This document shows positions 2 to 6,600 of a stretch of 37,311 nucleotides of DNA, piece after piece (within the stretch, counting starts at the first letter, position 1; every line of letters begins with the position of its first letter). The position numbers and the translations under genes are program-made. Where the stretch lies: contig JAGCFP010000022.1 in assembly GCA_017650045.1 (NCBI GenBank), positions 1-37,311 on the forward strand, given 5' to 3'. The notes beneath the pieces are model-generated. The model had not been told where the DNA came from. It did not search any database and was given only the letters and a program-made list of their open reading frames with translations. This DNA comes from Bacteroidaceae bacterium. Its GTDB lineage: Bacteria > Bacteroidota > Bacteroidia > Bacteroidales > Bacteroidaceae.

Positions 2-256
2 ATCATCCCTCGTGAGATTGGGGATGAGTGGATGCTGATTCCCACAGGTACCTTTGCCCAGAACTTCAATGGCATGATTTCACAGAATGAGTTCAGTCAC
101 TTTGTGTGGCATCAGTTTGCGGAGCCTCGCGCCATCGCTGAAGTTATGCAGGCTGTTCATGCGGAATATGAGGATGCTACGCATGTCATGGATGTGGAGG
201 TGCATCGTCTCATAGAAGACTATGTCAATATGGGTTTACTTTTAGAGAAGAAATAA
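2..256 (+). CDS. PqqD-family protein (RiPP recognition element-like), 5' end cut by window
   Basis: The frame is open from the first bases of the window, so the true start lies to the left; 84 residues are visible. The visible part has PqqD traits: an early basic segment (IPREIGDEW), a hydrophobic turn with a Thr-Gly, an F-N-G-M stretch where PqqD has L-N-x-x-G, an amphipathic helix of the AIAEVMQAVHAEYE type, and a C-terminal DVEVHRLIEDYVNMGLLLEK segment typical of the family end. PqqD-type domains bind leader peptides of ribosomally made, modified peptides and present them to the modifying enzyme. The next two small genes share a leader-like N-terminus and lie immediately downstream on the same strand, 32 bases from this stop to the first ATG, so it is probably co-transcribed with them. 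The rest of the system, if any, lies left of the window. The family call is from reading motifs, with no alignment. Confidence 0.72.
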   Translation: MIPREIGDEWMLIPTGTFAQNFNGMISQNEFSHFVWHQFAEPRAIAEVMQAVHAEYEDATHVMDVEVHRLIEDYVNMGLLLEKK

Positions 257-288
257 ATTAAAATAATAACAACTAAAAAACATTGATT

Positions 289-765
289 ATGGAAACAATG
301 AAGAAAGAATGGGGAAAACCATTAACTGGTGTTCAGGAGTTTGCACCACAGGAGTTTATTGCAGCATGTGATAATACTGGAGCTACGCAAACTTATTATT
401 TCATGTGTGATGGTGGAATATCAAATCAGCATTATGACGTTATTTTAGATACCAATAAGAATCATACAAATGATGGTTATTGGGTAAGGAACTGGAATGG
501 TAGTTATACATTGAATCCTGGTGGAGATGAACTTCTTACTTATTCTACTTTGTATTATCATCCATGTGGCACAACCCATGTGGTGACAGTACCTTATGGT
601 ACAAGTGTAGAAGCCATATTCCCTTATGGTTGGATTCAAACAAAGAACTCTCATAGTAATACTAATTGGACACCTGTAAGAATATGGCGTGGTGATGATG
701 GCAATAATATTCACTGTACAACAAATTTAAGATCCGAAGATTTTATTCCTCATAATCCATCATAA
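289..765 (+). CDS. Putative leader-bearing precursor / secreted small protein A
   Basis: A 158-residue protein of unrecognised family. ATG 289 is preferred to the upstream TTG at 283; ATG 298 is also possible and would start exactly at MKK as in the second paralogue. The first 20 residues after that Met read MKKEWG-x-P-x3-VQEFAPQEF and are followed by an AAC, a leader-like block nearly shared with the gene at 1069. There is no hydrophobic Sec signal. The body is rich in Asn, Gly, Thr, Tyr and Trp, has four Cys (one at the leader/body junction) and carries a D-x-N-K-N...N-D-G segment resembling a calcium-loop pattern. A YxxHPCGTTH motif lies in the second half. It sits 32 bases after the PqqD-like gene. 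It could be a RiPP precursor with an unusually long core, or a protein exported by a dedicated machine that recognises the N-terminal block. No function is claimed. Confidence 0.7.
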   Translation: METMKKEWGKPLTGVQEFAPQEFIAACDNTGATQTYYFMCDGGISNQHYDVILDTNKNHTNDGYWVRNWNGSYTLNPGGDELLTYSTLYYHPCGTTHVVTVPYGTSVEAIFPYGWIQTKNSHSNTNWTPVRIWRGDDGNNIHCTTNLRSEDFIPHNPS

Positions 766-1068
766 GTGTTCTGTCAAATTTCTAACCTGACGTGGAAGGA
801 CAAAAGGTTTTAGAACAATGCAGAGCAGATAAGATAATTCTAAACCCCTACACCTTTTGCCTATAACAAATAGGTAATCAGTAGGGTGTTTGGTAAAAAG
901 AGTATGTCCGTTTCTCGGGATAGACACTTTAATGCTCACAATGCCCAAAGCGCTGAGTAAAAATGCCCATAGTTACGAGCATAAATGCTCACAATGATGA
1001 ACATTGTTTTCCTCATTGTAAAGAAACCATATATTAGGTAATTGATAAAAGGAGAAATAGCAATTAGA
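766..1068 (+). other. Gene-free spacer between the two precursor genes, with hairpins and a 13-nt direct repeat
   Basis: No convincing coding sequence is seen here. The spacer holds a hairpin at 842-891 (AAAC-CCCTAC pairing with GTAGGGTGTTT) that encloses a smaller perfect stem CCTAT/ATAGG at 860-874. AATGCTCACAATG occurs twice, at 931-943 and 984-996, 53 bases apart. No TAnnTTTG promoter is evident, so the downstream gene may depend on readthrough from the upstream one. A Shine-Dalgarno-like AAAGGAG lies about 20 bases before ATG 1069. Confidence 0.5.
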
Positions 1069-1461
1069 ATGAAAAAGAGTTGGGGCCAACCAATTATACA
1101 AGTACAGCTGTTTGCTCCGCAGGAGTATTGTGTTAATTGTAGTCCTGTGGCAAATGAGTCAAGTTGGCAAAATCTTATCAATAGAGCTGAAAGCGATTAT
1201 TATTATATAGATTTTAACAAGAATAATAGATATGATAATGGAGAAAGATTTTTAAAAACAAGTGGCGCTTCTGCTGATGGTGTGATGAATAAAGAGGCTT
1301 ATAGTAGTGTGACAGTCTATACACGAATCAATAGTAGGACGGGGCAATATTCAACTGAAAATTATATTAGGTGGGTTCTTATTGTTCCAATCCCTGTCCA
1401 ATCATACTTTTCCCTTAATACGGTTAAAGTTGTTAATGGCATAGCAAAGAATATTTCTTGA
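1069..1461 (+). CDS. Putative leader-bearing precursor / secreted small protein B
   Basis: A 130-residue paralogue of the gene at 289. ATG 1069 is chosen because it aligns the N-terminal MKKSWGQP with MKKEWGKP of the first gene; the TTG at 1042 has no such support. The leader block (MKK-x-WG-x-P-x3-VQ-x-FAPQE-[YF]) is conserved and again ends in Cys residues (CVNC). The body keeps the acidic-Asn segment (DFNKN...DNG) and is otherwise strongly diverged: Tyr- and Asn-rich, with a late hydrophobic strand WVLIVPIPV. No signal peptide or membrane helix is seen. Strong conservation of the N-terminus against a variable body is what is expected when a shared partner, such as the PqqD-like protein, recognises the leader. 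Family and product are unknown to me. Confidence 0.68.
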   Translation: MKKSWGQPIIQVQLFAPQEYCVNCSPVANESSWQNLINRAESDYYYIDFNKNNRYDNGERFLKTSGASADGVMNKEAYSSVTVYTRINSRTGQYSTENYIRWVLIVPIPVQSYFSLNTVKVVNGIAKNIS

Positions 1462-1502
1462 AAATACAACATACATCACAATTAGATGTTATTAATGCGT
1501 TT

Positions 1503-1532
1503 GCAAGCGGCTGCTGTGAAGCCCCCGCTTGC
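1503..1532 (+). terminator. Hairpin downstream of precursor gene B
   Basis: GCAAGCGG (1503-1510) pairs perfectly with CCGCTTGC (1525-1532) around a 14-base loop and is followed by TTATATAAAG. The run of T is weak, so this may be a processing or stability element rather than a strong intrinsic terminator. Confidence 0.4.
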
Positions 1533-1622
1533 TTATATAAAGAATCAAAAGCGAGGGAGCATTAATGCCCCAAAGCTTGAAGACATATATTGACTGAAGT
1601 TTGCGAGATTCAAAGTCAAGTG

Positions 1623-1665
1623 TGAAGCACTGCACGGAGAGCGCTCTGGCAGTGCTTCATTATTT
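1623..1665. terminator. Strong hairpin between the precursor locus and the toxin-antitoxin pair
   Basis: TGAAGCACTGC (1623-1633) pairs with GCAGTGCTTCA (1649-1659), an 11-bp stem, with a short palindrome AGAGCGCTCT in the loop and TTATTTTCTCTT after it. It lies between convergent genes, the plus-strand precursor gene and the minus-strand toxin, so it probably serves both directions. Confidence 0.65.
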
Positions 1666-1676
1666 TCTCTTCAACT

Positions 1677-3357: not shown

Positions 3358-3461
3358 GGCTGCGAATTTACAACTTTTCTGTTCAAAAAACGCGAATTTT
3401 AGCAAAAATCCCTATAATGGTATTAAAGAATGTTATAAAACATGCTTTTTTATTTGGATAA

Positions 3462-3492
3462 TTTGCACATTATTTAAAAGTCCGTACCTTTG
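3462..3492 (+). promoter_or_regulatory. Promoter of the small RNA
   Basis: TTTG (3462-3465), 19 bases, TACCTTTG (3485-3492): a perfect match to the Bacteroidetes consensus. It would start transcription near 3497. Confidence 0.75.
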
Positions 3493-3497
3493 TAACG

Positions 3498-3559
3498 TGT
3501 TTTTCATAGTATTAGATTTAAGGTTAACAAGGTTGGGATACAGCGGTATCCCTTTTTTT
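3498..3559 (+). ncRNA. Candidate ~60-nt intergenic small RNA ending in an intrinsic terminator
   Basis: The interval starts a few bases after a perfect promoter and ends with an intrinsic terminator: GGGATAC (3535-3541), loop AGCG, GTATCCC (3546-3552), then seven T (3553-3559). There is no open reading frame of useful length. Between promoter and terminator lies TTTAAGGTTAACAAGGTTGG, which could be an exposed single-stranded or weakly structured region. The GH2 gene has its own separate promoter just downstream (3571-3601), so this is not simply a leader of that gene. Boundaries are estimated from the promoter geometry. I do not know whether it matches a named RNA family. Confidence 0.7.
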
Positions 3560-3570
3560 ATGTCCTTTCG

Positions 3571-3601
3571 TTTGTGAATCCTTCAAAATGCACTATCTTT
3601 G
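3571..3601 (+). promoter_or_regulatory. Promoter of the GH2-GH30-GH106-DUF805 operon
   Basis: TTTG (3571-3574), 19 bases, TATCTTTG (3594-3601) match the consensus exactly. The start codon of the GH2 gene is 28 bases further on, leaving a short 5' leader of about 23 bases. Confidence 0.78.
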
Positions 3602-3629
3602 CTTCATTAAAACGTAAAATTTTATTCCT

Positions 3630-6600
3630 ATGAATCGCCATTTTATGCTATTGTGGCTCGTGGCTCTTTGCTTGCCAATCAGTGTGCAGGCTCAGTTGCA
3701 GCGTGGCTATATGGGTCATATATATGACTATCTGGAGAATACTGATGTGTTTGAAGCAGGACAAGAGGAGGGGCATGCTTTCTGGATTCCAGAGAAGAAC
3801 CTCTCGCTCAATGGCAACTGGAAATTCTACTTTGCCAATACGCCTGAAGAAATTCCACAGGTGTTCTTCCTCCCCAATTACAATGTGAAGCGTTGGAGCA
3901 ATATCGAGGTGCCTTCCAACTGGGAGATGCAAGGTTTTGGCGATGCGATGTTCCGTAACACCACCACTCCTTTTAGGGCCAATCCTCCCTATGTGCCACG
4001 CGACTATAATCCCACAGGCGCCTATCGCACCACTTTTCGTGTACCTGCCAATTGGAGCGGAGAGCAGGTATTCCTGCGCTTTGAAAAAGTAGCATCAGCC
4101 AGCTTCGTATGGCTCAATGGTCAGGAGGTGGGATACAATGAGGGTGGACAGGAACCCGCTGAATATAACATCACCAAATACTTGAAGCAAGGCGAGAATA
4201 CCTTGGCAGTATTGGTAACCAAGTATAGCGATGGTTATTATATGGAGCAACAAGATTATTGGCGATTGGCGGGTATCTTCGATGATGTGTGGCTCTTTGC
4301 CACACCCAGTACCCGATTGTTCGATTGGCAGGTCATCACTGATCTGGACGACCAATATCGCGATGCTACCTTGAAGGTGAATGCATGGGTGAAGACTTAT
4401 GATGGCGCTTCTTCTGACGGTCTGCAAGTAAAGATGCAGCTGATGGATGCAGCAGGACGTGAAGTAACCACCCTGCAAGACAATGTGAGAAACGGGGCAG
4501 TTCAAGTGGAACGACTAATCAGCAACCCGCTGAAATGGACATCGGAGACGCCTAATCTCTATACCTTGAACATGCAGCTTACTGATGTTGAAGGCAAGGT
4601 GATAGACCAAGCTGTGCAGCAGATAGGATTCAAGGAAACCAAGATTGCTGATGGGGTGTTCTATCTGAATGGTGTTCCACTGAAGGTGAATGCACAAAAC
4701 AGCCACATGCAGCATCCAGAGTGGGGACACATGATGAAAGAAGAGGTGATAAGGCAGGACATGGAGATTCTGAAGCAGTTCAACTTCAATGCTGTGCGCA
4801 CCAGTCACTATCCTCCTGTGAACAGATACCTGCAACTGGCTAATGAGTATGGCCTCTTCATCATCGATGAGACGGGTGATGAAGCCCATGCCTCTGAGCG
4901 TATCTCGCGCGACTCGACTTACATGAAGATGTATCAGGAACGCGTTCGTCGCATGGTGCTGCGCGATCGCAACTATCCTTGTATCCTGTTTTGGAGTGCT
5001 GGTAATGAGAGTGGTGAGGGCGACATGATAAGTGAGGTGATCAAGGAAGGTCGTCGCTATGACTCTACACGCTACTGGATGTATGGTGGTAACGCCTATT
5101 CACACCCAGCTGAAGACATCATTGGTCCGCGTTATCCTACTCCTGAGGAGCTCGACCTTCAAGTTGGCTTACGAGGCGATGGTGACAATCGTCCCTCGTT
5201 TATGGATGAATACCTTTCTGTGGCAGGTAATGGTGGAGGAGCCTTGGACGACTTTTGGCGTGTGATCTATGCCCAGCCTCGAAGCATGGGAGGTGCTATC
5301 TGGGACTTTGTGAGTCCAGGACTTACACAGACAGCACGTCAATTGAAAGATAGCTCGCCTTATGGCACCATGGCTCACCTTATGGGAAATGCCCAATTAG
5401 TGAAACTTGGAAAGAAAAACCCAGATACCGTGCTCGATTTGAATGGTCACGACCAGTGGGTAGAGGTCTATCGCAGTGAAAATGTTGAGATTACTTCCGA
5501 CAAGCTTACCATCAGTATGCGTGTCTTTCCTCGTGCATTGATCAGTGACTGCGGATCATTTATTACCAAAGGCAGCAACCAGTTGGGTATCCAGCAAAAC
5601 GGCAAAGAAGACATCTATTTTTATATCTATACAGACAAGCTCTACAAAGCAGAAGGCAAATTGCCTGCTGATTGGGAAGGCCATTGGCATGATATGCTGG
5701 CTGTCTATGATGGTGCTAAGATGACCCTAAGCATCGATGGTACAGTGATAGCTACCCAAGAAGCCAGTGGAAAGATACACAACTATCCTTTCCCATTGAA
5801 CATCGGACGAAACGCTCAAACCCATGGTCAAGAAACCAAGGTGCATATCTGCGATGCGCAGATAGATAAAGTGGCTCTCTTCACTGAAGCACTGGAGGCA
5901 GCAGAACTGACCCCAGAGAAGGCTGTGCTGTGGCTCGATTTCGAGGAAGAGACCAAGGGTGACACTTACTTCAGCTATGGTATCGGAGCCCGTACGTATG
6001 GGAGCATCTGGCCCAATCGTACTCCTCAACCCGAGATGTGGCAGATGAAAAAGAGTGCACAGCCCCTTAGTTTCACGCTGCTCAGTGCTGAAGATGGAAC
6101 GGTGGAGGTGTGGAATCGAAATCACTTCGTGAATGCTTCCATTTATGATACCCGTTGGGAGATTCAAGCAGATGGCGAGACAGTGGCTTCAGGTACGTTG
6201 GCCCTCGATGTGGCTCCGCTTAGTAAGAAAGTGGTGAAGGTGCCTTATGCCAAACCTTCCATTCAGGCAGGTAAGGAATATCGCTTGTTGCTAAGCACCA
6301 CGCTGAAGCAAGACGAGGTTTGGGCTAAGAAAGGGCATGAAGTGGCTTGGGAGCAGTTGGATCTGCCTTGGAGCCAACCTGCTATGGAAGAAAGAGCTGT
6401 CAGTGGTGCTTCTTTCCAACAGACGGAAGAGGGCGTGACAGTAAGTGGCAATGGCTTTAGCTATACCTTCAATAAAGACGGACAATTAGTTTCTATGGTG
6501 ATGGGCGACAAGGAACTGCTTCGCTCTCCGCTAAAACTCAATGTTTGGCGTGCACCATTGGCCAATGAGCAAGATTCGTGGAACGCCTTCCGTTCTCGTG

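Follow-up and report, generated by a model that had tools for sequence, protein, structure and literature searches.

The question raised by this stretch of Bacteroidaceae DNA is what purpose is served by two small genes that begin alike, continue quite differently, and lie directly behind a gene for a PqqD-like protein. The window, by which we mean the whole stretch analysed (37,311 nucleotides), is the left end of contig C26 and opens within the 3' part of the PqqD-like gene (2..256, + strand), whose product exceeds the cut-off of the Pfam PqqD family (PF05402; E 2.1e-7, 31.6 bits, cut-off 23.4). Both small genes lie directly after this gene and on the same strand, and its PqqD-like nature, proposed from the sequence alone, is in agreement with Pfam. 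The first, W1 (298..765, +), encodes a precursor of 155 aa with a leader, MKKEWGKPLTGVQEFAPQEFIAAC, that runs to Cys24 (298-369) and a body that extends to 762 and ends in HNPS; the second, W2 (1069..1461, +), encodes 130 aa with leader MKKSWGQPIIQVQLFAPQEYCVNC (1069-1140, again to Cys24) and a body to 1458 that ends in KNIS. The shared motif MKK-x-WG-x-P-x3-VQ-x-FAPQE-[FY]-x3-C is exact as previously read, with Cys24 at the block's end, and the reported lack of a Sec-type hydrophobic segment in both proteins is borne out by Kyte-Doolittle hydropathy, which is not a signal-peptide predictor. In the first 45 residues of the 44 leader proteins that we read, the top 15-residue Kyte-Doolittle mean was 1.6, with a median of 0.73. 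Neither W1 nor W2 had a Pfam match over cut-off or an NCBIfam match up to E 1; a match of W2 to GEVED below the Pfam cut-off (E 0.044) is considered chance. A PDB search with a W1-type profile gave no match, and the AlphaFold models of W1 (pLDDT 33.5) and of the PqqD protein of the related locus L040 (pLDDT 44.6) were too poor for use.

Between W1 and W2 lies a spacer (766..1068, +) with no gene recognised in the ORF list, parts of which (840-1005) recur on contigs C33, C18, C14 and C12. The 3' flank (1473..1673, +), with a terminator-like inverted repeat seen by eye, is common to other cassettes of the genome, with 88.6% identity over 202 bp to that on C15 and 81% over 194 bp to that on C91. 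Next to it, on the opposite strand (1677-2344, -), are two overlapping small genes of 120 and 104 aa with no Pfam family over cut-off, which by eye resemble a toxin-antitoxin pair and likewise adjoin the orthologous locus L039 (10358-11025), and an sRNA of the FopS family (RF04319, 76.4 bits) at 3497-3562 is also present in L039 (12178-12243).

The sequence-only reading had expected the remainder of the cluster just left of position 1. Contig C91 overlaps the left end of the window by exactly 85 bases, and the PqqD frame is open across the join, which places its ATG on C91, some 53 codons (about 158 bp) to the left of the window, and gives a whole protein of 137 aa, with an extension of ~60 residues followed by the PqqD domain, and 96% identity to the L040 protein. 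Further left on C91 there is a second cassette, consisting of a PqqD gene (136 aa) and precursors of 150 and 125 aa that start MEKRIEKWESLRLEAQRFNPQEYCVIC and MNSKKEKFESLRLELQEFTPQEFCVTC; a third is split between contigs C89 and C15, so that the genome holds six precursors in three cassettes of one PqqD and two precursors each. Most of the genes named by eye on C91 beyond its cassette are housekeeping ones (KDO-8-P synthase, ribosomal proteins, seryl-tRNA synthetase). An ABC ATPase/permease pair and a gene resembling M16 peptidases, also named by eye, lie 2.5-7.7 kb left of the cassette on the opposite strand, and we presume them to be unrelated to the cassettes. This leftward extension yielded no recognisable radical SAM, kinase, NTase or ATP-grasp gene, and the idea that an enzyme cluster directly adjoins the window on its left is rejected. 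The PqqD partner and the leader-bearing, protein-sized precursors of the original proposal are supported, and the proposed position of its other genes is not.

Two further features concern extended PqqD genes. Each such gene of this genome and its goat relative is preceded by a conserved terminator-like hairpin followed by CTTTTCTTTTT (hairpins at L009:290-397(-), L009:2985-3089(-), L036:13301-13402(+), L039:7845-7955 and L040:7845-7955), in which the stem varies on both sides (CGTGGGA/TCCCACG, CGCGGGA/TCCTGCG, CGTAGGA/TCCTACG). Its folding z-scores were -3.1, -1.9, -3.2, -0.05 (L039) and -2.1, no Rfam family covers it, and it is a possible attenuator. In addition, an N-terminal pattern K-x(1,2)-[YWF]-x-[KR]-P was present in 27 precursors, in five extended PqqDs and in no other of 423 ORFs from the fetched loci; this leader-like PqqD start was noticed after the fact and is not significant by leader HMM (E 0.25 at best). 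Extended PqqDs with such a start may be competitors of their clients or themselves clients; those of L154, L155, L156 and L158 are without the pattern. The spacer between precursors on C91 (L009:1642-1914) and that on C15 (L037:9300-9572) are common to both cassettes and apparently non-coding.

The shared leader is not a matter of chance, and the original observation is confirmed. An HMM from four leaders of the window genome found six genes there (E 4e-10 to 1e-18), including the four on which it was trained. The leader-only HMM (A6, built from 26 rows) gave full-length matches in 12 of 301 genomes of the family, the window genome included (G000, G330, G344, G358, G370, G380, G391, G409, G423, G507, G534 and G573), and partial matches only in three further genomes; six weaker partial matches with E 6e-4 to 7e-3 (one each in G344, G368 and G555, three in G460) were dropped before the counts. 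A model of the W1 family matched in 8 of the 301 genomes. Across 61 relatives, the first leader model had matched nothing beyond the window genome except for a weak, stop-containing match in G009 (E 0.09), and the extended PqqD matched in four others through its domain alone, at 21-35% identity. An order-wide search with the W1 model, in a sample that held few genomes of the family, found the window genome alone (1/295); tblastn of one precursor against plasmids gave none, and tblastn of the C91 PqqD against phages gave one 21%-identical match only. The 44 leader proteins include three from the goat MAG. Of the 44, 32 served as training leaders (29 from family genomes and 3 from L039/L040), and include W1-type bodies gathered with a full-length two-sequence model (A5) which sees the C-terminus; the remaining 12 are held out and all come from the leader-only search. 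Gene names given here from ORF lists without a Pfam or NCBIfam assignment are by eye.

Behind this constant leader the bodies, of 94-150 residues, differ to an extreme degree. At a blastp threshold of 1e-4 the 44 leader proteins fall into 22 body families (of 17, 4 and 4 members, and 19 singletons), or into 19 at a looser 1e-2; W1 belongs to the family of 17, and at 1e-4 the W2 body matches none of the others. Comparison at the DNA level of the C91 and C15/C89 cassettes, which are near-identical paralogues, locates the change: the 3' part of PqqD is 97.2% identical, the spacer 93.4%, the 3' flank 86.9%, and the upstream and leader segments 89.1 and 91.1%, and the two bodies are 56.8 and 59.9% identical against 59.6 and 59.1% for shuffled sequence. 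In a goat-omasum relative (L039; MAG Bacteroidaceae bacterium RGIG2785), this locus has a PqqD gene at 91.0% and leaders at 88.3 and 79.1% identity, with bodies at 59.7 and 61.0% against 57.8 and 58.7% shuffled. The bodies are therefore no better matched than shuffled sequence in all four comparisons, between a PqqD gene, leaders, spacers and 3' flank that are 79-97% identical. In blastn of C91 against C15 the match stops within the leader (at about codon 18 in gene 1 and at QEF in gene 2) and resumes 9-107 bp past the stop. Body GC is 33-37% in seven of eight (44% in L039a), that of leaders and PqqD 42-50%, and that of 35 ORFs of at least 150 aa 48±5%. The W1 cassette compared with L040 is a milder case, with flanks at 93% and a body at 67% DNA and 54-55% protein identity. 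The simplest reading of this DNA pattern is that bodies have been replaced by recombination behind a constant leader, with very fast divergence of the bodies as the alternative. A conserved N-terminal leader followed by a variable core is also what is seen in RiPP precursors.

The feature that the bodies do share is their last residue. A C-terminal serine is present in 42 of the 44 leader proteins, in all members of 20 of the 22 body families, and in five of the six precursors of the window genome (the exception, C15b, ends VSG), with asparagine at position -3 in 27/44. In the held-out set, found by leader only, 11/12 end in serine, the exception being L151. For comparison, serine comes last in 13 of 286 background ORFs taken from these loci, each at least 100 aa long; the set was derived mechanically and includes some spurious ORFs. 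A conserved C-terminal serine is a trait common to the precursors of kinase-tailored lasso peptides.

The enzymes predicted for such a system are found beside the same leader in relatives, where modifying enzymes, an S24-like peptidase and an ABC exporter adjoin it. The loci are of two classes. In class I (L065, L066, L067, L069, L070, L071, L147, L151 and L152), precursors lie near at least one of a radical SAM gene, a short PqqD, an HprK-like kinase, an S24-like peptidase just under its Pfam cut-off, an NTP_transf_5 protein and an ABC exporter; the radical SAM proteins of these loci (A8) have an invariant CxxxCxxC and C-terminal cysteines. Class II is the window type, with an extended PqqD of 130-140 aa and one or two precursors only (the window, C91, C89/C15, L039, L040, L068, L072, L149, L153, L154, L155, L156 and L158). 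The relatives' PqqD proteins that were scanned also exceed the PF05402 cut-off, and the extended form adjoins the leader in three genera (g1, g26, g198), with a short PqqD at L065 in a fourth (g184). Precursors of the W1 body family themselves adjoin maturases and the kinase in other genomes. Among the held-out leader genes 9/12 have a partner nearby, this being an extended PqqD at six loci and a maturase, kinase or NTase at L147, L151 and L152; in the stretches read around the other three (L148, L150 and L157) neither an extended PqqD nor a maturase, kinase or NTase was recognised, and the precursors of L063 and L064 likewise have no recognised partner within the 16 kb read. The sequence-only reading held that a leader found widely without a partner would speak against it; this was mostly not the case, in that at least one of extended PqqD, kinase, NTase and maturase is present in all 12 leader genomes, although the common occurrence of NTases makes this a weak test. 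One class I locus, L147, has at 3386-4759 an NTP_transf_5 protein with ~124 extra N-terminal residues that are PqqD-like by eye, in which Pfam finds the NTase only.

In the window genome the candidate machinery would act in trans from contig C64, which carries an ABC exporter, an NTP_transf_5 protein (E 1.7e-44), a PqqD (E 5e-16), an HprK-like kinase and an S24-like peptidase, with no leader gene seen in the stretch read. Identity of the C64 kinase to those linked to leaders is just 26-30%, over 112-235 residues. The C64 kinase has the HprK-like His-Lys-Asp-Asp set (H146, P-loop GKSGTGKST, D186-D187), of which the kinases of six relatives retain only the second Asp of the pair; the H, P-loop and D align weakly with HPr kinase 1ko7 (E 0.015). 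The ABC exporters scanned, from C64 and L147, have no peptidase domain. A reverse transcriptase gene (PF00078, E 7.5e-25) lies near the kinase/NTase/ABC locus (L035:3352-4566). No radical SAM maturase of the leader-linked family was found in the window genome at E 1e-30, in an assembly that is 77% complete, and the best identity of the relatives' maturases to its 15 radical SAM loci was 33% over 118-136 aa. A goat-omasum relative, G624, has a maturase whose locus also includes a PqqD, together with a kinase and an NTase akin to their L071 counterparts.

Across genomes, the maturase family accompanies the leader: it is present in 9/12 leader genomes and in G624, and in none of 79 leader-free genomes (every third from G331 to G580, with leader genomes and G460 skipped). 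As the maturase model was built from G330, G358, G380, G507, G534 and G573, the independent figure is only that without the model-supplying genomes, 4/7 against 0/79 (p 1.6e-5). The kinase, counted in leader genomes only, is present in 10/12, and in 4/6 outside its model sources (G000, G358, G380, G507, G534 and G573). The presence of NTP_transf_5 in leader genomes says little because the family occurs in 206 of 301 genomes (11/12 leader genomes against 195/289 others, p 0.11). Besides the window genome, in which no maturase of this family was found, two leader genomes depart from the pattern. G370 (87% complete) has neither kinase nor maturase, and G423 (99% complete) has two class II PqqD and precursor pairs, with Ser-ended precursors, and no kinase (E 1e-5), NTase (1e-8) or maturase (1e-30), which is real counter-evidence to a model that includes these enzymes.

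A conserved tag of about 25 residues, changing bodies that nearly always end in serine and a probable tag-binder suggest a little-known system which tailors and exports whole proteins. On balance we lean towards the window locus being a satellite cassette that belongs to a RiPP-like system for maturing and exporting whole small proteins. The PqqD-like protein would bind W1 and W2 through their conserved leader of 24 residues, as RRE proteins bind leaders in the excerpts available of PMC7470986 and PMC8326336, and would hand both precursors to machinery encoded elsewhere, on C64 in this genome. There, the HprK-like kinase would phosphorylate the conserved C-terminal serine and the NTP_transf_5 protein would attach a sugar (hexose) or nucleotide to it; the S24-like peptidase may cleave the leader near the junction Cys, and the ABC exporter would carry the product out. 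These steps we infer by analogy with the lasso kinases PadeK and ThcoK and with PsmN, and from the gene neighbourhoods of relatives; in the accessible text of PMC9266682, lasso-peptide kinases modify the conserved C-terminal serine and PsmN then adds a hexose. Where it is present (9/12 leader genomes), the radical SAM/SPASM enzyme may modify the body. Exchange of bodies as cassettes between a constant leader and a constant 3' flank would allow one machine to serve many unrelated bodies. A further and tentative possibility, somewhat doubtful at present, is a surface-protein system in which one leader serves any body, and in which the swapped bodies receive a phosphate and a sugar at the C-terminus and are attached to surface polysaccharide or displayed alongside it. 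This destination is considered because four machinery loci in relatives (L065, L069, L147 and L187) hold capsule or exopolysaccharide genes, identified by Pfam as GLF, Polysacc_synt_2, DegT, Bac_transf, Poly_export and NusG; by eye the C64 stretch has no polysaccharide genes.

The closest known parallel is with lasso peptides that have an HprK-like kinase and a PsmN-type NTase (paeninodin, ThcoA and pseudomycoidin), which, in the parts available of PMC9266682 and PMC7533575, also have a discrete PqqD-type binder and likewise a kinase, a nucleotidyltransferase-type protein and a C-terminal serine. In contrast to these, the bodies here have 94-150 residues rather than being short lariat cores, reading of the ORF lists (with no HMM search) brought up neither a lasso cyclase nor a B2 transglutaminase-like protease, and relatives add a radical SAM maturase and an S24-like peptidase. 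A lasso peptide in the strict sense is therefore rejected, given the large bodies and the lack of a cyclase noticed in ORF lists. The radical SAM/SPASM RiPPs with an RRE in trans (PqqD/PqqE of PQQ, and ScmC-F of SynChlorMet) share with the relatives a PqqD and a SPASM enzyme, and the kinases of L067 and C64 match SynChlorMet ScmC weakly, far below NCBIfam family cut-offs; they differ from the present system in its large swapped bodies, its C-terminal serine and the absence of a radical SAM gene from the window cassette. Graspetide and other precursors of Bacteroidetes (pfam14406, TIGR04139, TIGR04149) are described in excerpts of PMC8939145 as fast-evolving, some of them beside SPASM enzymes, but no ATP-grasp gene was noticed in the loci read here, and W1 and W2 are rejected as known precursors of this kind as they have no NCBIfam match. 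Of ten precursors scanned with Pfam, one was over cut-off: that of L063 (L063:6779-7303, -; 174 aa) resembles Ena endospore appendage subunits (PF13157; E 7.1e-5, 23.2 bits against 22), with no credible PDB relative by sequence, whereas W1, W2 and nine other scanned precursors do not match. Hits below cut-off to a lentiviral family (C91b, 0.0033), to M43 peptidase (L063, 0.093) and to GEVED (L157, 0.02) are considered chance. A lipoprotein was also rejected: the junction [VI]AAC, present in 23/44, is lipobox-like, but there is no hydrophobic segment. The open-licence literature gave no account of the leader, of the swapped bodies, or of this enzyme set on protein-sized precursors, and the available portion of a RiPP survey of Bacteroidales (PMC10352776) names PqqD only in a reference. 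We have filed the system as RRE-guided ribosomal tailoring outside any named class.

Other explanations are considered less probable. The cassette could be a stand-alone export or folding system, in which PqqD is a leader-binding secretion chaperone, nothing is modified and the C-terminal serine is a recognition tag. The two pairs of G423, with no kinase, NTase or maturase at the thresholds used, are as this would predict, and so is the fact that the extended PqqD is a distinct form adjoining precursors at six of 12 held-out loci. Against it, W1-family precursors adjoin maturases and a kinase in other genomes, and the discrete RRE proteins described to date, as covered in the available text of PMC7470986, bind the leader and recruit modifying enzymes, and we regard it as unlikely. 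Somewhat less credit still is given to the bodies being antagonistic, bacteriocin-like proteins that are diversified by cassette exchange, with the leader and PqqD serving export. Such a role would suit their extreme diversity behind a conserved leader and the several cassettes of the window genome; however, reading of the ORF lists recognised no immunity gene beside the precursors, and 12 precursors scanned included no Pfam toxin family.

It is also conceivable that these genes are simply a paralogous family with a common N-terminus, unlinked to PqqD, and that both the adjacency and the serine are coincidental. Leader genes do stand alone, in the stretches read, at L063 and L064 and in three of the 12 held-out cases. 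This is nevertheless highly improbable in view of the serine found in all members of 20/22 body families, the PqqD found beside the leader in four genera (extended in three and short in one) and the co-occurrence of the leader with maturases.

If the satellite-cassette reading is true, leader-guided ribosomal tailoring would extend beyond short peptides, with one machine for some 22 body families of 94-150 residues recognised at the leader and at the last residue. The set of kinase, NTase and PqqD, in which the NTase at least is widespread in the family, would gain substrates, and the system would provide a case of natural body swapping that may be of use in engineering.
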